Below, piece by piece: positions 32,035 through 40,875 of a stretch of DNA of 64,000 nt (within the stretch, counting starts at the first letter, position 1; each line of letters starts with the position of its first letter). The DNA lies in contig CACYPF010000017.1 in NCBI GenBank assembly GCA_902776195.1, positions 1-64,000 on the forward strand, read 5' to 3'. The position numbers were made by a program, and so were the translations under genes. This DNA is from an uncultured Prevotellaceae bacterium. GTDB lineage: Bacteria > Bacteroidota > Bacteroidia > Bacteroidales > Bacteroidaceae. The notes under the pieces were generated by a model that saw nothing but the letters and a program-made list of their open reading frames with translations, was not told the DNA's origin and searched no databases.

Positions 32035-33924
32035 TCAATTCTTCAATTTTAACCTCAGACTGTTCAGTACCACACTGACACTGGAGAACGCCATCAATGC
32101 CGATGCCCACATCGGGGTAATCTGCCAATGTAGTCCGAAGAGGTAGGGGAGTCCTGCTGCCAGTGGGATACATATTATATTATAGATAAACGCCCAGAAC
32201 AGGTTTTGGTGAATCATATTGACGGTTTGTTTCGACAGGCTGATGGCATCAGGGATACGACGCAGGTCGTTTCCCATCAGCGTCACCTGTGCCACATCCA
32301 TGGCGACATCGGTGCCCTTGCCCATGGCGATACTCACATCAGCAACGGCAAGTGCCTGGGAGTCGTTGATACCGTCACCCACCATGGCGACATGCTTACC
32401 CTGCTGTTGCAGTTCCTGCACCAGGTCCTCCTTGTCCTGTGGCATCACCTGAGAGCGATAATGCTGAATACCAGCCTCTTGCGCTATCTTCTTGGCACGC
32501 TCTTCCTTGTCGCCACTCATCATATATACCTCGATACCCATGTCTTGTAGTTGCTGCATCGCCTCCTGGGCATGGGGCTTGAGGGATTCGGACCCCTCCA
32601 ACCTCCCCTGTTGAGGGGAGGCTATAGGTTGGGTGAGTGTTCCTGTCTTGTCGATGACGAGGGCATCGACCTTACGGATATCCTCTAAGGCGGCAGCGTC
32701 TTTGATGAGGATATTCTTCTCGGCAGCCTTGCCGATACCCACCATCAGGGCAGTAGGGGTGGCGAGTCCCATGGCACAGGGACAGGCTATTACCAAGACG
32801 CTGACGGCAGAGAGGATGGCATGTGGCAGATACTCGTGTCCTCCAATGAGATACCAGACGAGGAAGGTCAGCAGGGCGATGCCGCCCACGGCAGGTACGA
32901 AGACGAGGGCGATCTTGTCGACCACCCGTTGTACGGGAGCCTTGGAGCCCTGTGCCTCCTGTACCATCCGTATCATATTCGCCAGTACGGTCTTCTGTCC
33001 TATCTCCTCCGCCTTGAAACGGAAAGTACCCTCACGGACAATCGTTCCTGCCAAGACCTTATCACCCGCATTCTTCTCTACAGCAACGGACTCGCCTGTC
33101 ATCATCGACTCGTCGATGAGGGCTGTATTATTGCCTACCATACGACCGTCCACTGGAATCTTCTCACCGGGTCGAACCTCAACCGTATCGCCGGGTTGGA
33201 GTGCTGACAGGGGCACTTCCACCACCTCACCCGTATCAACGAGATGTGCCGTCTTGGGAGCCAGTTCCATCAAGGAACGGATAGCGGAGGCGGTCCCATG
33301 CTTGGCACGCTCCTCCATCAGTCTGCCTGTCAGTACGAAGGTGATAATCATCACAGAGGCATCAAAATAGGTATGCCACTCGATACCCTGACTACCCCAG
33401 TAGGAGTCGCCCCAGAACGTATTGAAAGTACTGAAGAGGAACGAGATACCTGTTGAGAGAGCCACCAGAGTGTCCATATTGGCAGAGGCATGCATCAACT
33501 GTCTTGCGGCATTCACGTAGAACTGTCTGCCCGAATATAGGATGTTCAGCAAGGCGAGAATCATCATCGTCTGGTTTGCCATATCGCGCGTACCTATATA
33601 TATCCATCCCATGGAGATGGACATCACCAGTAAGGCAAAGAGCCAGGAGACGATGACCTTATTGCGCAGACGCTTATAGGCATGCCGCTCTATCGCCTCC
33701 ACGTTACGGTCTTCCTCCACCACCATGTCGTAGCCGATGGCGGCAAGTGCCTCCTTCATCTTCTCTGGTGAGGTGACAGCCTCGTCATATTCTATCATAG
33801 CGGTACGGGCAGGCAGGTTGACGGCGGCAGAGGCGACACCCTCCGTCAGGTTGAGCCGTCGCTCCACATTAGCGGCGCATCCTGCACACATCATGCCCAA
33901 TACTGCAAACGTCTTTTTCTCCAT
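32035..33924 (-). CDS. copA: Copper-type P1B ATPase with compact nucleotide domain
   Basis: Heavy-metal export ATPase, 629 residues. One HMA domain with MMCAGCAANVERR (Cys pair about 15-18), membrane helices, the A-domain TGES motif, the intramembrane metal site ACPCAMGLATPTA (about 376), phosphorylated Asp425 in DKTGTLT, and GDGINDSQAL (about 516). Between DKTGT and SGDK there are only ~40 residues, where E. coli CopA has ~140, so the usual N domain with its His-Pro motif is absent. That linker is encoded by a REP-like palindrome (32590-32637). The last residues (KLKN) come from a TTGAAGAATTGAAG repeat. The start at 33924 fits the HMA domain and the promoter. Confidence 0.88.
   Translation of the reverse strand: MEKKTFAVLGMMCAGCAANVERRLNLTEGVASAAVNLPARTAMIEYDEAVTSPEKMKEALAAIGYDMVVEEDRNVEAIERHAYKRLRNKVIVSWLFALLVMSISMGWIYIGTRDMANQTMMILALLNILYSGRQFYVNAARQLMHASANMDTLVALSTGISFLFSTFNTFWGDSYWGSQGIEWHTYFDASVMIITFVLTGRLMEERAKHGTASAIRSLMELAPKTAHLVDTGEVVEVPLSALQPGDTVEVRPGEKIPVDGRMVGNNTALIDESMMTGESVAVEKNAGDKVLAGTIVREGTFRFKAEEIGQKTVLANMIRMVQEAQGSKAPVQRVVDKIALVFVPAVGGIALLTFLVWYLIGGHEYLPHAILSAVSVLVIACPCAMGLATPTALMVGIGKAAEKNILIKDAAALEDIRKVDALVIDKTGTLTQPIASPQQGRLEGSESLKPHAQEAMQQLQDMGIEVYMMSGDKEERAKKIAQEAGIQHYRSQVMPQDKEDLVQELQQQGKHVAMVGDGINDSQALAVADVSIAMGKGTDVAMDVAQVTLMGNDLRRIPDAISLSKQTVNMIHQNLFWAFIYNIICIPLAAGLPYLFGLHWQITPMWASALMAFSSVSVVLNSLRLKLKN
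32598..32637. repeat. REP-like palindrome inside copA
   Basis: CCTCCCCT / AGGGGAGG stem with a GTTG loop plus an outer CCAAC / GGTTGG pair, read in frame as part of CopA. It resembles the element in aguA at 3933-3970. Confidence 0.75.
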
Positions 33925-33932
33925 ATTGACTG

Positions 33933-33940
33933 CAAAGTTA
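33933..33940 (-). promoter_or_regulatory. copA promoter -7 box
   Basis: TAACTTTG on the minus strand, 8 nt before the start; TTTG at 33967-33964 (23-nt spacer) is a possible -33 element. It is back-to-back with the Phe/Tyr operon promoter. Confidence 0.65.
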
Positions 33941-33970
33941 ATTATTTTCTGATAAAAAAGTGACAAATTA

Positions 33971-34002
33971 TTTGTTTGTTTCATGGAAATGTGTTACTTT
34001 TG
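33971..34002 (+). promoter_or_regulatory. Phe/Tyr operon promoter
   Basis: TTTG (33971-33974), 20-nt spacer, TACTTTTG (33995-34002). A 7-bp inverted repeat TTTGCAA / TTGCAAA (33999-34017) overlaps the -7 box and the expected transcript start, a possible operator. Confidence 0.8.
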
Positions 34003-34030
34003 CAACCGAATTGCAAAAAACAATAGACTT

Positions 34031-34108
34031 ATGACACGATTGAACGCTTACTTTTACGGTTATTATTTTTACTTTACAGCAAACTGTGAAGCGGGAAGTC
34101 GTATGTAA
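34031..34108 (+). CDS. Tyr/Phe-rich attenuator leader peptide
   Basis: A 25-codon ORF starting about 24 nt after the predicted transcript start. Residues 7-15 are Y-F-Y-G-Y-Y-F-Y-F: five Tyr and three Phe codons in nine, matching the end products of the downstream operon. The peptide itself need have no function; translation of these codons would sense charged tRNA-Tyr and tRNA-Phe. Codons 14-21 overlap RNA segments 1 and 2 of the attenuator. It has the same design as the Phe-rich pheA leader of E. coli. Start and frame are read directly; expression is inferred. Confidence 0.85.
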   Translation: MTRLNAYFYGYYFYFTANCEAGSRM

Positions 34109-34179
34109 AACAGAAAAATTGAAAATAGAAGAATTAAATAAGGCTCCGCTTCACAAACAAGTGAAAGCGGAGTTTTTTT
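34072..34179 (+). promoter_or_regulatory. Ribosome-mediated attenuator (1:2, 2:3, 3:4 helices)
   Basis: Segment 1 (34072-34079, CTTTACAG) pairs with segment 2 (34084-34091, CTGTGAAG; 8 bp, one wobble). Segment 2 (34086-34094, GTGAAGCGG) pairs with segment 3 (34146-34154, CCGCTTCAC; 9 bp perfect). Segment 3 (34144-34154) pairs with segment 4 (34161-34172) as the terminator, followed by seven T. Stalling at the Tyr/Phe codons would mask segment 1 and favour 2:3 (read-through); free translation would favour 3:4 (stop). Confidence 0.85.
34144..34179 (+). terminator. Attenuator terminator
   Basis: CTCCGCTTCAC / GTGAAAGCGGAG stem (11 bp with one bulged A), loop AAACAA, T7 tail; 18 nt before pheA. 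Confidence 0.88.
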
Positions 34180-34197
34180 ATAAAAGTAAAAAGCATT

Positions 34198-35040
34198 ATG
34201 AAGAGAATAGCGATACAAGGACTCATCGGTTCGTTTCACGACATCGCCGCACATCTTTTTTTCGAGGATGAGCAGATACAGTTGATTTGTTGCTCTACCT
34301 TCGAGCAGGTGTTTGACACCATCAAGCAGGATCCTACTGCCATCGGCATGCTCGCCATCGAGAATACCATCGCCGGCTCGCTACTGCATAACTACGAGTT
34401 GTTGCGTGACTCAGGCACCACCATCGTGGGAGAGCATAAACTGCATATCTCCCACTGTATCTGTTGTCTGCCAGATGACGACTGGGACACCATCACCGAG
34501 ATTCATTCGCATCCCGTGGCACTGATGCAGTGCCGTGAGTTCCTCGCACAGCATCCTGACATGAAACATGTGGAGGCGGAGGATACGGCAGGAAGTGCCA
34601 AGATGATTGCGGAAGGTCAGAAGAAGGGGTGGGCTGCCATCTGTCATGCTGACGCTGCCAAGCAGTATGGACTGAAGGTACTGGAAAACCATATTGAGGA
34701 CAACAAGCATAACTTTACCCGCTTCCTTGTGGTGTCGAATCCCAACAAGGCGGACTTGCTGCGTCCGCTGACGGAGGCTAACAAGGCGAGCATCGTCTTC
34801 TCACTGCCTCACGAGGAGGGTTCGCTGTCGCATGTCCTCGCTATCCTCTCGTTCTACAAGATCAACCTGACGAAGATACAGTCGCTGCCCATCATCGGAC
34901 GGGAGTGGGAGTATCTGTTCTATGTGGACGTGATGTATGACGACCTCACCCGCTATCGTCAGTCGATAGATGCGATTATCCCATTGACCAAGGACTTTAA
35001 GATTTTAGGAGAATACAAAGATGGCAAACAGACCAATTGA
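34198..35040 (+). CDS. pheA: Prephenate dehydratase
   Basis: Converts prephenate to phenylpyruvate. 280 residues: PDT domain with IAIQGLIGSFHDIAA, LAIENTIAGSLLHNYELL, and the catalytic Thr-Arg-Phe in HNFTRFLVVS (about 175-184). A C-terminal ACT domain follows (SIVFSLPHEEGSLSHVLAIL, then LTKIQSLPI replacing the usual ESRP), the site for Phe feedback inhibition in the family. No chorismate mutase domain; that activity sits on the DAHP synthase two genes on. First structural gene after the attenuator; overlaps the aminotransferase gene by 20 nt. Confidence 0.95.
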   Translation: MKRIAIQGLIGSFHDIAAHLFFEDEQIQLICCSTFEQVFDTIKQDPTAIGMLAIENTIAGSLLHNYELLRDSGTTIVGEHKLHISHCICCLPDDDWDTITEIHSHPVALMQCREFLAQHPDMKHVEAEDTAGSAKMIAEGQKKGWAAICHADAAKQYGLKVLENHIEDNKHNFTRFLVVSNPNKADLLRPLTEANKASIVFSLPHEEGSLSHVLAILSFYKINLTKIQSLPIIGREWEYLFYVDVMYDDLTRYRQSIDAIIPLTKDFKILGEYKDGKQTN

Positions 35041-36193
35041 ACCAGCAGAGAGATTAAGCTTAGTGAGTGAATACTACTTCAGCCGTAAACTGAAGGAGGT
35101 TGCCCAACTGAATGCGGAGGGTAAGGACATCATCAGTCTTGCCATCGGCAGTCCTGACATGCCACCCTCGGAGAAGACGATAGAGAAGTTGTGCGAGGTG
35201 GCTCATCAGCCCAGTGCGCATGGTTATCAGCCGACGATGGGAACACCGGAGTTGCGTGAGGCGATGGCTCGTTTCTATAAGCGGTGGTATGGTGTCGACC
35301 TCGACGCTAAGACAGAGGTGCTGCCTCTGATAGGCTCGAAGGAGGGTATCCTGCATGTCACCCTTGCCTTCGTCAACCCTGGCGATGAGGTGCTGGTGCC
35401 TAACCCTGGCTATCCTACCTATACGTCCCTGTCGAAGATATTGGGTACCAAGATTGTCAATTATAACCTGCGTGAGGATAACGGCTGGCAGCCTGACTTC
35501 GACGAGTTGGAGAAGATGGACCTCTCAAAGGTCAAGCTGATGTGGACGAACTATCCCAACATGCCGACAGGTGGTAACGCCCGCCGTGAGACCTACGAGC
35601 GACTGGTGCAGTTTGCCAGGCAGCATGGTATCGTGGTGGTCAACGACAACCCTTACTCCTTCATCCTCAACGAGGAGCATCTCAGTATTCTGCAGGTACC
35701 TGGTGCGAAAGACTGCTGTATCGAGTTCAACTCCATGTCGAAGTCGCATAACATGCCTGGATGGCGTGTCGGTCTGTGTGCCACCAACAGCGAGTTCATC
35801 TCATGGATACTCAAGGTGCAGTCGAACATCGAGAGCGGTACGTTCCGTGGCATCCAGCTGGCTGCCGCCGAGGCTTATGACAATAGTGACGAGTGGCATC
35901 GTGAGGCGAATATAGAGACGTATCGCCGTCGTCGCCAGTATGCGGAGCAGATCATGGACGTGCTGGACTGTACGTATGACAAGAACCAGGTGGGGATGTT
36001 CCTCTGGGGTAAGATTCCCGCAAAGTACGATAACGTGGAGAATTTGACGGAACGGGTACTGCACGAGGCTCGTGTCTTCATCACCCCTGGCTTTATCTTC
36101 GGCTCCAACGGGGAGCGGTATATTCGCATCTCACTTTGCGCAAAAGAGGAAAAAATCAAAGAGGCATTAGAAAGAATCAAAAAAACGATATAA
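35021..36193 (+). CDS. Class I/II aminotransferase (probable aromatic aminotransferase)
   Basis: PLP enzyme, 390 residues. PLP-binding features: YQPTMGTPELREAMARFY, NPGYPTYTSL, WTNYPNMPTGG (Asn), VVNDNPYSFIL (Asp), the Schiff-base Lys in EFNSMSKSHNMPGWRVG (about 241), and the substrate Arg in ERYIRISL near the C-terminus. Its place between pheA and the DAHP synthase gene points to the last transamination of phenylpyruvate and hydroxyphenylpyruvate (inference; the sequence alone also resembles LL-diaminopimelate-type aminotransferases). Confidence 0.88.
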   Translation: MANRPIEPAERLSLVSEYYFSRKLKEVAQLNAEGKDIISLAIGSPDMPPSEKTIEKLCEVAHQPSAHGYQPTMGTPELREAMARFYKRWYGVDLDAKTEVLPLIGSKEGILHVTLAFVNPGDEVLVPNPGYPTYTSLSKILGTKIVNYNLREDNGWQPDFDELEKMDLSKVKLMWTNYPNMPTGGNARRETYERLVQFARQHGIVVVNDNPYSFILNEEHLSILQVPGAKDCCIEFNSMSKSHNMPGWRVGLCATNSEFISWILKVQSNIESGTFRGIQLAAAEAYDNSDEWHREANIETYRRRRQYAEQIMDVLDCTYDKNQVGMFLWGKIPAKYDNVENLTERVLHEARVFITPGFIFGSNGERYIRISLCAKEEKIKEALERIKKTI

Positions 36194-36195
36194 AC

Positions 36196-37260
36196 ATGGA
36201 ACTGGAACTAGAAAAATTGAATCTACCAAGTGACAATGAACGCCCCTTCGTCATTGCAGGACCCTGCAGTGCTGAGAGTGAGGAGCAAGTGATGACTACC
36301 GCCAAGCAACTGGCAATGTACGGATGTCATAACTTCCGTGCCGGGGTATGGAAGCCCCGTACGAAACCCGGTGGCTTCGAGGGACATGGTGAACCAGCCC
36401 TCGTTTGGTTGAAGCAGGTAAAGCAGGAGACGAAGATGCTGGTGGCTACCGAGGTGGCTACACCGGAGCATGTGGAGCTCTGCCTGAAGTATGGCATTGA
36501 TATCCTGTGGGTGGGTGCGCGTACCTCTGCCAATCCCTTTGCCATGCAGGCACTTGCCGACTCGCTGAAAGGTGTGGATATCCCCGTCTTCGTGAAGAAT
36601 CCCGTCAACCCCGACCTGGAGTTGTGGATTGGTGCGATGGAGCGTCTGAACCAGGCTGGTGTGAAGCGCCTGGCAGCTATCCATCGCGGTTTCTCCAGCT
36701 ATGACAAGAAGATATACCGTAACATGCCGATGTGGCAGATTCCTATCGAGTTGCGTCGCCGTATTCCCGAACTGCCTATCATCAATGACCCCAGTCATAT
36801 CGGTGGTCGTCGTGAACTGATTGCCCCCTTGTGCCAGCAGGCGATGGACCTCGGCTTCGACGGTCTGATCATCGAGAGCCACTGTGATCCTGACAAGGCG
36901 TGGAGTGATGCCAAGCAGCAGGTGACTCCTGATGTGCTTGACTATATCCTGTCGCTGCTCGTCATCCGTGAGGAGAACACATCCACCGAGGGTATCACCA
37001 CGCTCCGTAAGCAGATTGATGAGCTGGACAACCAGTTGATGGAGCTGCTCTCGAAGCGTATGCGTGTCTGCCGTGAGATCGGTCAGTACAAGAAGGAGCA
37101 TAACATGACGGTATTGCAGACCACACGTTACAACGAGATTCTCGACAAGCGTGGCGCACAGGGTTCTCTGCTGGGCATGGGACCTGAGTTCGTGGCAAGT
37201 GTCTTCGAGAGTATCCATGAGGAGAGTGTCCGTCAGCAGATAGAGATCATTAATAAATGA
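36196..37260 (+). CDS. DAHP synthase fused to chorismate mutase
   Basis: Bifunctional enzyme, 354 residues. Residues 1-260 are a type I-beta DAHP synthase (PFVIAGPCSAES, FRAGVWKPRTKPGGFEG, WVGARTSANPF, VFVKNPVNPD, HRGFSSYDK, DPSHIGGRR, IIESHCDPD). Residues ~270-354 are an AroQ-type chorismate mutase (LRKQIDELDNQLMELLSKRMRVCREIGQYKK). It catalyses both the entry to the shikimate pathway and the chorismate-to-prephenate step. The start at 36196, 2 nt after the aminotransferase stop, fits the domain. Confidence 0.95.
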   Translation: MELELEKLNLPSDNERPFVIAGPCSAESEEQVMTTAKQLAMYGCHNFRAGVWKPRTKPGGFEGHGEPALVWLKQVKQETKMLVATEVATPEHVELCLKYGIDILWVGARTSANPFAMQALADSLKGVDIPVFVKNPVNPDLELWIGAMERLNQAGVKRLAAIHRGFSSYDKKIYRNMPMWQIPIELRRRIPELPIINDPSHIGGRRELIAPLCQQAMDLGFDGLIIESHCDPDKAWSDAKQQVTPDVLDYILSLLVIREENTSTEGITTLRKQIDELDNQLMELLSKRMRVCREIGQYKKEHNMTVLQTTRYNEILDKRGAQGSLLGMGPEFVASVFESIHEESVRQQIEIINK

Positions 37261-37287: not shown

Positions 37288-38082
37288 ATGAAAATAATAG
37301 TTTTGGGTGCAGGAAAGATGGGTAGTTTCTTCATCGACCTGCTGAGTTTCGATCATGAGGTGGCTGTCTACGAGAAAGACCCCAAGCGCATGCGGTTCAC
37401 GTATAACTGTCAGCGCTTCACGGAGTTGGAGGAGATTCGCACATTCAATCCCGACTTGGTGATTAACGCCGTGACAGTGAAGTATACCATCCCTGCCTTC
37501 AAGGACGTGATTCCCTATTTGTCGAAGGACTGTATCATCAGCGATATCTCCTCCGTGAAGACGGGTCTGAAAGATTATTATGAGTCGACAGGGATGCGCT
37601 ATGTCTCCACGCACCCGATGTTCGGTCCTACGTTCGCCAATCTCCAGCAGCTCTCTGAGGAGAACGCCATCATCATCAGCGAGGGTGACTATATGGGACG
37701 TATCTTCTTCAAGGACCTGTATCAGAAGCTCGACCTGAACATCTACGAGTATACCTTCGAGGAGCACGACAAGACGGTTGCCTACTCATTGAGTATTCCT
37801 TTCGTGTCGACCTTCGTCTTCGCTGCTGTCATGAAGCATCAGGATGCACCAGGTACCACCTTCAAGCGTCACATGCGCATTGCCAAGGGGGTACTTAACG
37901 AGGACGACTATCTCTTGCAGGAGATTCTCTTCAACCCCTATACACATGACCAGGTGTCGCAGATCCGCACGGAGCTGAAGGAACTGCTGGAGATTATCGA
38001 CCAGAAGGATGCCAAGGGTATGAAGGCTTATCTCACAAAGATTCGCAATAACGTAAAGCGTGACATCGAAATCACTAAATAG
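37288..38082 (+). CDS. tyrA: Prephenate dehydrogenase
   Basis: Oxidative decarboxylation of prephenate to hydroxyphenylpyruvate with NAD(P). 264 residues: Rossmann motif IIVLGAGKMGSFFIDLL at the N-terminus, DLVINAVTVKYT, ISDISSVKTGL, STHPMFGPTFANLQ, and the helical dimerisation domain after EEHDKTVAYSLSIPFVS. The length and lack of an ACT domain fit the short Bacteroidales form. It overlaps the transporter gene by 23 nt and completes the Tyr branch of the operon. Confidence 0.93.
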   Translation: MKIIVLGAGKMGSFFIDLLSFDHEVAVYEKDPKRMRFTYNCQRFTELEEIRTFNPDLVINAVTVKYTIPAFKDVIPYLSKDCIISDISSVKTGLKDYYESTGMRYVSTHPMFGPTFANLQQLSEENAIIISEGDYMGRIFFKDLYQKLDLNIYEYTFEEHDKTVAYSLSIPFVSTFVFAAVMKHQDAPGTTFKRHMRIAKGVLNEDDYLLQEILFNPYTHDQVSQIRTELKELLEIIDQKDAKGMKAYLTKIRNNVKRDIEITK

Positions 38083-39004
38083 TACGTTAGGCTATCATTT
38101 TGTCGCTTTCCTGATTGTTGCCATCTGGGGCAGCACCTTCGTCTTTACGAAGATGCTGCTCATGGCAGGTCTGTCGCCTGCTCAGATCTTTACGCTTCGT
38201 TTCATCATCGCTTATGTGCTGTTACTGGGGTATGAGTTTTCTCTTCAGTCCTTCAATTTTTCAACTCTTCAATTCTTCTGTCGTTCTTGGCGGGATGAAC
38301 TGTTGATGGCGTTGTTAGGATTATCGGGTGGGGCACTCTATTTCCTCACCGAGAACGCAGCCCTCATCTATACCACGGCAACGAACACCTCGTTGATAGT
38401 CTGTTCGAGTCCGCTCTTCGCCATGCTGCTCATCGCCTTGTTCTATCGGCAGAGTGAACCGCTCACCAGACAGAAGGTGACGGGGTCGCTGATGGCATGT
38501 GCGGGGATGGCGGTCGTCGTGCTCAACGGTCATTTCGTGCTTCACCTGTCACCGCTCGGTGATATCCTTGCCTTCGGTGCTTGTCTTTGCTGGGCACTCT
38601 ATTCTCTCATTATGAGGAACGTCACAGGTCGTTATAGTTCCCTTTTCATTACCCGTAAGGTGTTCTTCTATGGGGTCTTGACCATCCTGCCGTATTATTT
38701 CATCGTTCCTTCTGATAACTGGATATTCACCCCTTCCATTCTTCAATTCTTCCATCTTTCCACGCTCCTCAACCTGCTGTTCCTTGCTGTGGTGGCATCG
38801 ATGCTCTGTTTCTTGGCATGGAACTGGGTGATCAGCAAGTTGGGTACCGTCGTCGCCACCAACTGGGTCTATTTCAATCCCATCACCACCATCATCTTCG
38901 CATGGTGGCTGCTCAACGAGCAAATCACACCGTGGTTCCTCCTTGGCACCGTCCTCATCCTTTTGGGCATGTATCTGTGCGATAAAAATTCTAGAACTTT
39001 CTAG
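38060..39004 (+). CDS. EamA/DMT-family transporter with repeat-encoded loops
   Basis: Drug/metabolite transporter superfamily, 314 residues, ten predicted helices in two EamA halves (VAIWGSTFVFTKMLL; YTTATNTSLIVCSSPLFAMLLIALFY; ILLGMYLCDK at the end). GTG start inside tyrA. Three parts are encoded by short tandem repeats: loop residues 61-74 (SLQSFNFSTLQFF), residues 224-235 (TPSILQFFHLS) and the C-terminal NSRTF, which comes from the TCTAGAA array. The position suggests export of an aromatic compound, but substrate is not evident. Confidence 0.85.
   Translation: MTSKSLNSTLGYHFVAFLIVAIWGSTFVFTKMLLMAGLSPAQIFTLRFIIAYVLLLGYEFSLQSFNFSTLQFFCRSWRDELLMALLGLSGGALYFLTENAALIYTTATNTSLIVCSSPLFAMLLIALFYRQSEPLTRQKVTGSLMACAGMAVVVLNGHFVLHLSPLGDILAFGACLCWALYSLIMRNVTGRYSSLFITRKVFFYGVLTILPYYFIVPSDNWIFTPSILQFFHLSTLLNLLFLAVVASMLCFLAWNWVISKLGTVVATNWVYFNPITTIIFAWWLLNEQITPWFLLGTVLILLGMYLCDKNSRTF
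38242..38281 (+). repeat. CTTCAATTCTTC repeat inside EamA gene
   Basis: Degenerate tandem CTTCAATTTTTCAACTCTTC-type units in frame. The same family occurs at 38731-38760 in the same gene and at 32033-32050 in the copA/AI-2E junction. Confidence 0.7.
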
Positions 39005-39054: not shown

Positions 39055-39723
39055 CTATCCTTTCCCTCTAAGCCTAGCCACTTCCCCCTCCAGTTGCGTT
39101 ATCCTTTTTTCTGCCCTTTCCAATTTCTGTTTCAGGCGCATAATCTCATCTTTCTGGTTCGTGCGATAGCCGAGCCGTGCGGCAGTCATCCGTTCCTTGA
39201 TGCCACCCTCAACCAGAAACTCCTTCTCCAGTTTCTTCTGATACGACCGCATCATCTTATCTATCATATGACAAAGCGTGAGTGCCGTATTAGCCATTTC
39301 CTCATCATTCATCTTGTTAATAAATAGCGCATACTCTTCCCATTGGTTGTTCTTCCTGCAAAATTCCAGCATACCATGATAACGATGAAAACGACTGTCC
39401 CATTGGTGTAGATGCCGTGAGGCAAGATAATCCTCGTAATCCTCACGCAGTTCGTGGATACTGCTTCGAGCCACGTTCATCAACTTGATTTCCATTTCCA
39501 TGGAGGTAGCACCATCTTCTGCCCCTTCCACAATATTCTGCTTGCCAGAGCGTGCCGCTTGTACCATCTGGTCTATCGTGCGGTCACCCTGTCGCAGATA
39601 CCGCTTGGCAAACTCGAATGTCAGTAAGTACAAAACATTTGTCTTTTGGTAGAAATACAAATCTGCCCATCGAGTCTGACTTCTCATCACTCGGAATTGT
39701 TTTTCCAAATTCTCGTTATTCAT
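39055..39723 (-). CDS. Four-helix-bundle (S23/Avd-like) protein
   Basis: 222 residues. The ~30-120 core has the S23-type four-helix-bundle pattern (LTFEFAKRYLRQGDRTIDQMVQAARSGKQNIVEGAE) and the longer suffix region of Bacteroidales homologues, ending in a coiled coil (IMRLKQKLERAEKRITQLEGEVARL). Relatives are encoded in 23S rRNA intervening sequences and as Avd in diversity-generating retroelements; no reverse transcriptase or variable gene is nearby. It is bracketed by two TCTAGAA arrays in the same orientation. Function unknown. Confidence 0.82.
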   Translation of the reverse strand: MNNENLEKQFRVMRSQTRWADLYFYQKTNVLYLLTFEFAKRYLRQGDRTIDQMVQAARSGKQNIVEGAEDGATSMEMEIKLMNVARSSIHELREDYEDYLASRHLHQWDSRFHRYHGMLEFCRKNNQWEEYALFINKMNDEEMANTALTLCHMIDKMMRSYQKKLEKEFLVEGGIKERMTAARLGYRTNQKDEIMRLKQKLERAEKRITQLEGEVARLRGKG

Positions 39724-39774: not shown

Positions 39775-39816
39775 AACATAAAACTCCACAATCTCCCCCT
39801 TTTCCCCAAAAAAAAT

Positions 39817-39883
39817 TCTAGAAACTTCTAGAAATTTCTAGAACGCTCTAGAACAATCTAGAATAATCTAGAACAATCTAGAA
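39817..39883 (+). repeat. TCTAGAA array, 10-nt period (right)
   Basis: Seven TCTAGAA units at exact 10-nt steps from 39817 to 39877, same strand consensus as the left array. Confidence 0.9.
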
Positions 39884-39964
39884 CACCATTCCCAAAATGC
39901 TCTCCCTCTTGAAATAACTGCAGGAATCATAAAAAATATACCTAAGTTTAAAAAATCGAGAAAT

Positions 39965-40050
39965 ATCTGTCAATCTATCAGCGAGAGGGTTTAACACACT
40001 GATAGACAGCGGATTGAACCGCTGACAGATAGGCTGATAGATTGATAGAT
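39965..40050. repeat. 18-bp inverted repeat with nested hairpin
   Basis: 39965-39982 pairs with 40033-40050 (17 of 18 bp); CAGCGG / CCGCTG (40007-40024) forms a second stem inside. Confidence 0.8.
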
Positions 40051-40130
40051 TCCAATGACAATGTCCCTTGTTACCCTTGATACCTTTGACACCAGTAGCT
40101 ACAACCTTTGTAAAGGATGCCTCCTTTCAT

Positions 40131-40218
40131 TGTAAATCAAATTGATTTGCAAAGTAAATCAAATTGAATTACTGAGTAAATCAAATTGAATTACTGAGTA
40201 AACCAAGTTAGACTGCAA
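40131..40218 (+). repeat. Four 22-nt tandem repeats (iteron-like), array 1
   Basis: Units at 40131, 40153, 40175 and 40197; the two central ones are identical (AGTAAATCAAATTGAATTAC then TG). Core AATCAAATTGAATT is nearly palindromic. Confidence 0.9.
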
Positions 40219-40419
40219 CTCTGCATGATATAGTTTTCATTGACGATGCCTAAGGCTTCGCAAGGAGGAAGTGGCACCTTCGTTCGTTTTTTCACTCATT
40301 TTAAGGGCAAAAACACCATTCGTTGTCACCCTTGTTACCTCGTTGTTACCGCAATCGTCTGATAATCAAATAGTCTTGCAAGGCGGCAACGGTTGCAAGG
40401 GTAAAAAACTTTATGTATT

Positions 40420-40439
40420 CGCACGTGCGCGTACGCGCG
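40420..40439. other. 20-nt alternating purine-pyrimidine run
   Basis: CGCACGTGCGCGTACGCGCG, strictly alternating, GC-rich within AT-rich DNA; capable of adopting Z-DNA. Confidence 0.75.
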
Positions 40440-40550
40440 AGGAATTCTGATACTCATATTAAACAATACGAGTATCTTATTAGACAATACGAGTATCAGA
40501 TTTTTCATTCCGCCAGTCGTATTATCAAACAACATTATTATATTTGACAA

Positions 40551-40757
40551 AAAACTAGTCCCCTTCTCCCTTTTTCTCTTGAAATGCTGATGTACAGGGC
40601 GTTTCACGACGGGAGTAGTTGCTCCAACTAGTCCCGTACTACTCCCTTTCGACTTCAACGGGAGAAGTATGGGAGATGTTCAGCCAACTACTCCCGTGCC
40701 CTGCGCCCTTTATTTATCAGGGTTTGAGCCACCTGACGGGAGAAGGGGACTAGTTTT
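40551..40757. mobile_element. MITE-like 207-nt nested palindrome
   Basis: Perfect 20-bp terminal inverted repeats (40551-40570, 40738-40757; AAAACTAGTCCCCTTCTCCC). Inside, a perfect 13-bp pair (ACGGGAGTAGTTG at 40612-40624 with 40685-40697) and a third inner pair of about 15 bp with two mismatches. No ORF. No clear target-site duplication. Confidence 0.7.
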
Positions 40758-40787
40758 ATCGATTTTCTTAAAAATTCTCCGGAATCA

Positions 40788-40875
40788 GTTACCGATTGAC
40801 CATTGCTTTGTTACCGACTGACTGTTGTTTTGTTACCGACTGACCATTGTTTTGTTACCGGCTGAAGCCTCTTTT
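40788..40875 (+). repeat. Four 22-nt tandem repeats (iteron-like), array 2
   Basis: Units start at 40788, 40810, 40832 and 40854 with consensus GTTACCGACTGACCATTGTT then TT; the fourth diverges in its second half. Same period as array 1, different sequence. Confidence 0.88.

Follow-up and report, generated by a model that had tools for sequence, protein, structure and literature searches.

How could a bacterium of the Bacteroidota match the transcription of one operon for phenylalanine and tyrosine synthesis to the supply of both amino acids? The question is raised by a short stretch (33971-34197) directly before pheA in the window, by which we mean the whole 64-kb piece of an uncultured Prevotellaceae genome analysed here. 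A sequence-only reading had proposed that this stretch holds a complete attenuator. We confirmed that the parts of a leader attenuator are real. The attenuation interpretation is supported as well: the pheA leader is very probably a ribosome-mediated transcription attenuator that senses the charging of tRNA-Tyr and tRNA-Phe jointly.

Sequence and comparison together establish the leader, its codon run, three pairings, a terminator, their spacing and the operon that follows (Table 1). The two promoter elements lie where they had been predicted and are separated by a 20-nt spacer. We take TTTG/TAnnTTTG to be the Bacteroidota-type promoter consensus and name the promoter in the window on this basis. 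The leader ORF encodes MTRLNAYFYGYYFYFTANCEAGSRM and has the predicted 25 codons, with eight Tyr/Phe codons in a run of nine. Its stop codon (34106-34108) is 89 nt away from the pheA start, and an intrinsic terminator (34142-34179) lies between the leader ORF and pheA. The predicted 8-bp 1:2 pairing (34072-34079 with 34084-34091) was also seen, one of its pairs being G-U. The two longer stems had to be revised: the 2:3 pairing (34085-34094 with 34146-34155) is free of mismatches, as claimed, but measures 10 bp, one more than claimed; the 3:4 pairing runs into the claimed T7 tract, but its stem has 12 bp, including one G-U, and a 1-nt bulge rather than 11 bp. The pheA locus has several features expected of a leader-peptide attenuator: a leader codon run, an intrinsic terminator, mutually exclusive 2:3 and 3:4 pairings, and control codons so placed that a stalled ribosome would leave segment 2 free. 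The terminator does not serve a gene on its other side: the neighbour there, encoding a heavy-metal P-type ATPase, lies on the minus strand and reads away.

Table 1. Features of the pheA leader and of the operon behind it (window coordinates)
Feature	Position	Strand	Basis
Candidate -33 promoter element, TTTG	33971..33974	+	read directly
Candidate -7 promoter element, TACTTTTG (TAnnTTTG)	33995..34002	+	read directly
Leader ORF, 25 codons and stop, no Shine-Dalgarno site	34031..34108	+	read directly; predicted translation
Control codons, codons 7-15, 8/9 Tyr/Phe	34049..34075	+	unique pattern match in genome
Segment 1, pairs with 34084-34091 (8 bp)	34072..34079	+	comparative pairing counts
Segment 2, within leader ORF; partner is segment 1 or segment 3	34084..34094	+	comparison
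Segment 3; antiterminator with segment 2, terminator with segment 4	34142..34155	+	comparison
Segment 4, 3' arm of terminator	34161..34173	+	comparative pairing counts
T7 tract, expected RNA 3' end	34173..34179	+	read directly
pheA, prephenate dehydratase	34198..35040	+	PF00800, 194.5 bits, over cut-off
PLP aminotransferase, same operon	35021..36193	+	best NCBIfam match 398.8 bits, below cut-off 507
DAHP synthase/chorismate mutase fusion (DAHPS/CM), same operon	36196..37260	+	PRK12595, 186.5 bits, below cut-off 279
tyrA, prephenate dehydrogenase, same operon	37288..38082	+	best match 69.6 bits, below cut-off 310

Family matches returned the gene order that had been claimed downstream: pheA, aminotransferase, DAHPS/CM and tyrA. 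All four fall below the curated NCBIfam cut-offs (pheA scores 198 bits with PRK11898, cut-off 219), and their names denote family resemblance. The C-terminal part of the fusion is matched by chorismate mutase families; its start at 36196 was chosen at an ATG. The last 23 nt of tyrA are shared with a DMT-family transporter ORF (38060-39004), a possible further member of the operon. The transporter ORF weakly matches an aromatic amino acid exporter model (27 bits, cut-off 194). The window also contains three distinct short tandem arrays that adjoin one another (39807-40875), one with the 10-bp unit TCTAGAANNN and two with 22-bp units, next to a 222-aa ORF on the minus strand (39055-39723). The nearest named pheA is 99% identical and belongs to an uncultured Prevotellaceae bacterium (RUG037); most other close relatives bear the name Prevotella, many of them apparently from ruminant stomachs. 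We take the window to derive from a Prevotella, probably one of the rumen.

How would such a leader operate? We infer that the promoter is used, that the leader is translated and that ribosome stalling throws the switch. RNA polymerase would start just past the TTTG/TAnnTTTG promoter, and a ribosome would initiate the 25-codon leader without a Shine-Dalgarno site. When Tyr or Phe is short, the ribosome would stall within codons 7-15, cover or melt segment 1 and free segment 2 (34084-34094), which could then pair with segment 3 (34142-34155) before segment 4 is made. No terminator would form, and the pheA-aminotransferase-DAHPS/CM-tyrA operon would be transcribed. When Tyr and Phe are plentiful, the ribosome would reach the stop codon and sit on segment 2; with segment 2 occupied, 3:4 would form and transcription would stop in the T7 tract. 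Without any ribosome, 1:2 would form and 3:4 would again terminate transcription.

We folded the leader with a ribosome at each codon and with segment 4 absent, taking 13 nt from the first A-site base as covered. The 2:3 pairing formed for A-site codons 1-15, partly for codon 16 and for none from codon 17 onward. The Tyr/Phe run (codons 7-15) thus ends just where the availability of 2:3 changes, in agreement with the geometry claimed from the sequence, in which stalling within the run frees segment 2. With the full leader at equilibrium, the terminator was favoured for all ribosome positions (-19.1 kcal/mol for the 2:3 stretch, -20.1 kcal/mol for the terminator). The predicted switch must therefore be kinetic; in known attenuators, too, the choice between folds is kinetic.

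Lack of conservation in related genomes was one of the grounds on which the sequence-only reading could have been refuted; in these genomes the 2:3 pairing is in fact kept, and so are the codons of the leader. We collected 110 pheA loci of Prevotella and allies (30 from genomes and 80 from named contigs, with a few duplicate records). In 108 of them, pheA is preceded by a leader in which 6 or more of 10 residues are F/Y. In the other two, the contig reaches only 140 and 117 nt upstream of pheA, which puts the leader beyond the contig end. A terminator lies between leader and pheA in 102 of 103 distinct loci. The sole exception (L093) has the leader and the left arm and is missing the right arm, a gap that reflects either natural loss of termination or an assembly error. 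At the 73 loci from named contigs, the aminotransferase was found in 73 and DAHPS/CM in 72.

We scored the stems in 65 non-redundant sequences drawn from 101 same-genus loci with a terminator, excluding L093 and three loci from other families (L028-L030) before alignment. The 1:2 pairing was paired in 99.2% of cells (35-61% in slid controls), 2:3 in 90.2% (37-49%) and 3:4 in 88.7% (30-50%). The covariation score of each pairing exceeded all 500 shuffles, which ignore relatedness. Stem 3:4 has 57 cells with two-sided changes, a count reached by 0/500 shuffles. Five of the 14 pairs in 2:3 show them, which 37/500 shuffles equalled, and the 2:3 core is near-invariant in Prevotella. The closing pair is the only one of the eight pairs in 1:2, the protector hairpin, that changes on both sides, a count matched by 233/500 shuffles. 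It is nevertheless the clearest individual example of covariation: the search pattern fitted 100 of 103 loci, and in these the pair is A-U in 50, G-C in 46, a wobble in 3 and unpaired in 1. Measured against shuffles, the stability of 1:2 had p≤0.05 in only 13/101 and 7/31 cases, most being no more stable.

Segment 2 lies within the leader ORF and could be kept for its peptide or for its RNA. Of the 103 loci, 95 read it in the usual frame, 2 read it in a different one, 2 have it spanning the stop codon, and 4 do not fit the pattern. Judged by these readings, segment 2 is conserved as RNA rather than as peptide. The Tyr/Phe run is retained among leaders that differ elsewhere, and conservation is low in the linker that joins segments 2 and 3. 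Many relatives whose leader ends in GSCV (L007, L012, L019-L027 and like loci) carry an AAGTTG...CAACTT complement around the leader stop, just past segment 2, by which the loop of stem 2:3 might be closed; we did not see it in the window.

To what extent is the element shared beyond these loci? With a covariance model built from leader and terminator (E≤0.001), matches were obtained in 128 of the family's 149 genomes and in 14 of its 16 genera; a second, weak match turned up in one genome. At least 5 of the 128 match by construction, since G000, G004, G024, G214 and G238 supplied sequences to the model, and further matched genomes may be of species shared with the named contigs. The source genome was matched at 152 bits (E 1.9e-24), its next best match having E 1.6. 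A PF00800 search for pheA covered 68 of the family's genomes, of which 48 had matched the model and 20 had not. Of the 48, 47 have pheA, and in 46 the match lies 14-52 nt before the pheA domain on the same strand; among the 20, pheA was found in 5 and not found in 15. The model also recovered a leader (G271) that an ATG-only scan had missed.

Our order and class set comprised 66 loci (L111-L176), 57 obtained through PF00800 (from 57/197 genomes) and 9 others. Leaving out the window itself and one locus without upstream sequence gives 64 loci, a few of which share a genus or family. At 45 of the 64 we found a leader that reaches 6 F/Y in 10 residues, every one followed by a terminator (45/45). 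Three more loci have a shorter run, TYFWFYP, together with a terminator and, by eye, a GGGAGG-type complement to its 5' arm, which brings the pheA loci with an aromatic-rich leader to 48/64. By these criteria the remaining 16 of the 64 have no leader, including those of all seven genomes (7/7) of one family (f37). The words that make up the 2:3 pairing differ by lineage and match within each, for example GCCGGGACT with AGTCCCGGC, GTCAGGATT with AATCCTGAT, CGAGGCTT with AAGCCTCG, and GGCAGGA with TCCTGCC. Compared with shuffles, the 2:3 pair had p≤0.05 in 31 of the 45 loci and p≤0.01 in 22; in the other 14 it was not significant (p>0.05). In the 31 significant loci, 5-16 nt separate the last F/Y codon of the run from segment 2, as expected if segment 2 has to stay free while a ribosome is stalled.

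We next consider which signal these leaders read. At least two Phe and at least two Tyr are encoded in 146 of 148 leaders, the exceptions having no Tyr (L028) and one Tyr (L175). Phe and Tyr both occur within the last five residues of the run (101/102 and 43/45). Trp is present in 7 of the 103 leaders of Prevotella and allies and in 13 of the 45 order and class leaders. In all 148, AGGAG, GGAGG and AAGGA are absent from the region about 3-18 nt upstream of the leader's start codon. TAnnTTTG occurs within 80 nt before the start at 127 of the 148 loci (5% in base shuffles), and 122 of these 127 have TTG 15-27 nt farther upstream.

In two genomes the attenuator stays with the aminotransferase operon rather than with pheA. 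In G304 (L228, contig C38), about 7.5 kb separate pheA from the aminotransferase, DAHPS/CM and tyrA genes, which the attenuator immediately precedes. Its run, AYYYSYYYF, is almost wholly Tyr, with a single Phe; none of the 148 main-set leaders has fewer than two Phe in its best ten residues. In G357 (L229, contig C79), the attenuator lies upstream of the aminotransferase and has the mixed run YYYFYFYF; PF00800 found no pheA in this genome. A tuning of the leader codons to the governed genes is suggested by the first genome only, because the second keeps its mixed run with no pheA found. For the same reason we rejected simple codon tuning as a general rule.

The best-surviving alternative is that the leader is translated but acts through Rho or through re-initiation at pheA, the hairpin being a constitutive partial terminator. 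The equilibrium folds, in which the terminator wins at every ribosome position, would suit it, and the accessible text of PMC4833913, which cites Lopatovskaya 2010, describes short leader genes near structural genes as common in bacteria, including Bacteroidetes. The same text places the peak of Bacteroidetes leader-to-gene distances at 11-14 bp, against the 89 nt in the window. A constitutive terminator would also leave unexplained why the complementarity of segments 2 and 3 is maintained while both change between lineages, and why the control codons keep their spacing from segment 2. We regard this alternative as very improbable.

Alternatively, the leader could be a riboswitch, a T-box or a protein-binding switch, its Tyr/Phe-rich ORF being incidental. 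Riboswitches and T-boxes also act through an intrinsic terminator with an alternative fold. However, no Rfam 15 family, T-box included, reached its gathering threshold in the 64-kb window, and neither a riboswitch nor a T-box was among the 13 matches listed at E≤10 in 33900-34300. The poorly conserved linker between segments 2 and 3 and the persistence of the Tyr/Phe run where leaders otherwise differ also speak against such a switch, which we consider slightly less probable still than action through Rho or re-initiation.

Several controls address chance. A search of the 2.97-Mb assembly for three Tyr/Phe codons, one arbitrary codon and five further Tyr/Phe codons matched a single place, the leader itself. 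In the 64 kb, 2 of 566 windows of 450 nt (both strands) reach at least 8 F/Y in 10, and both hold the leader. On the opposite strand of the 65 order and class loci scored, the maximum was 6 F/Y in 10. An identical scan of real and dinucleotide-shuffled sequence gave a hairpin of at most -10 kcal/mol with a T-tract in 146 of 148 leader-to-pheA stretches, compared with 5 of 444 shuffles; the two stretches without one are L093 and a locus at -9.3 kcal/mol (L125). That leader ORF and stems arose by chance from AT-rich DNA and a terminator is thus scarcely credible: TTT and TAT codons are indeed frequent in such DNA, but the codon pattern is unique in the genome, its density is not reached on the opposite strand of the loci scored or elsewhere in the window, and the leader is kept in 108/110 loci, so that the comparative data and the F/Y scan refute a chance ORF.

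A ribosome-mediated attenuator has a classical counterpart before the same gene. The enterobacterial pheA attenuator (pheL, RF01859) likewise consists of a leader ORF with control codons, alternative stems and a terminator before pheA. The window element differs in several respects: its control codons are Tyr and Phe, whereas those of E. coli pheL are Phe; its segment 2 lies inside the ORF; it has no Shine-Dalgarno site and another type of promoter; and its operon additionally holds tyrA and DAHPS/CM. The Rfam model of the enterobacterial leader (Phe_leader) gave 19.6 bits over its whole length and Thr_leader gave 19.4, each with a cut-off of 55, among the matches at E≤10 in 33900-34300, and the known Rfam leader families were rejected as an identification. 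The enterobacterial thr and ilv operons have leaders that respond to two or more amino acids. Joint Phe/Tyr sensing had been called unusual, and for pheA it is; because multi-amino-acid leaders are known in enterobacteria, it is not unprecedented.

Within the phylum, one described system close to it is Bacteroid-trp (RF01692), which the accessible text of Weinberg 2010 (PMC2864571) lists as a cis-regulatory element of Bacteroidetes. It resembles the window element in its phylum, its biosynthetic operon, its short control-codon leader, its terminator and a similar promoter, but it has Trp codons and precedes trpB where the window element has Tyr/Phe codons and precedes pheA. RF01692 (cut-off 49 bits) had no match in the window, nor in the source genome at E≤0.001. 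It matched 4 of 30 relatives, 2 of them over the cut-off; in the match from the same genus, trpB is preceded by a leader with WWW and by a terminator. In the source genome itself, MTNMANAWWWRSSRLK and then a strong hairpin with T4 precede trpB (L196:918-1080, contig C12), a candidate second leader-peptide attenuator that resembles Bacteroid-trp but that the RF01692 search did not report. Attenuation as a general habit of the source genome is only partly borne out. Scans before hisG, ilvD and the homoserine dehydrogenase gene, whose start is uncertain, found no matching leader in this genome, and a search at trpE led only to trpB, which lies upstream of it. A scan for four His codons was uninformative, with 93 matches against 9 for the reversed pattern.

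The claim that Bacteroidota have no characterised case held in one respect: in the literature searched, which covers few subscription journals, we found no experimental proof of ribosome-mediated attenuation at a Bacteroidota pheA, nor a description of a joint Phe/Tyr leader. Leader-peptide attenuation in the phylum had nevertheless been anticipated, by RF01692 and by a 2021 study of Flavobacterium psychrophilum (PMC9723704). The accessible text of that study names leader-peptide attenuation for amino-acid operons and reports a structured 5' element upstream of pheA that is conserved in other genera of the Flavobacteriaceae. This Flavobacterium element belongs to the same gene and phylum as the window element and may be identical with it; the accessible main text gives neither the pheA leader sequence nor its codon content or pairing. 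In other phyla, the accessible passages describe the uORFC-13-1 motif upstream of aroF in Acholeplasma (PMC8632094), whose run codes for at least one Phe, and the Leu/phe leader of Lactococcus lactis (RF01743; PMC2864571). These resemble the window element in presumed Phe sensing before an aromatic gene or in the sensing of two amino acids, and the passages mention no Tyr/Phe run. Short ORFs in 5' UTRs of Bacteroides thetaiotaomicron are likened to leader peptides in the accessible part of PMC7366714, and the accessible main text of PMC2965389 contains no word starting with 'Bacteroid'.

Taken together, the pheA element was partly foreshadowed by Bacteroid-trp and the Flavobacterium study; added here are its full anatomy, the joint Phe/Tyr codon content, the covariation and the breadth. 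We thus describe an RNA element for which Rfam 15 has no above-threshold match in the window. On these comparisons, leader-peptide sensing seems to be widespread in Bacteroidota, a phylum where it has hardly been studied. More tentatively, and with somewhat more doubt than confidence, we propose that one ancient aromatic-operon attenuator runs through the Bacteroidia, pooling Tyr and Phe (and in some lineages Trp) in a leader without a Shine-Dalgarno site whose codon mix tracks the governed genes. If so, transcription and translation would be tightly coupled in these bacteria without Shine-Dalgarno initiation. The pheA leader offers a compact, conserved and genetically simple test of ribosome-polymerase coupling in Bacteroidota, and it suggests how abundant gut and rumen bacteria may fit their synthesis of phenylalanine and tyrosine to demand.
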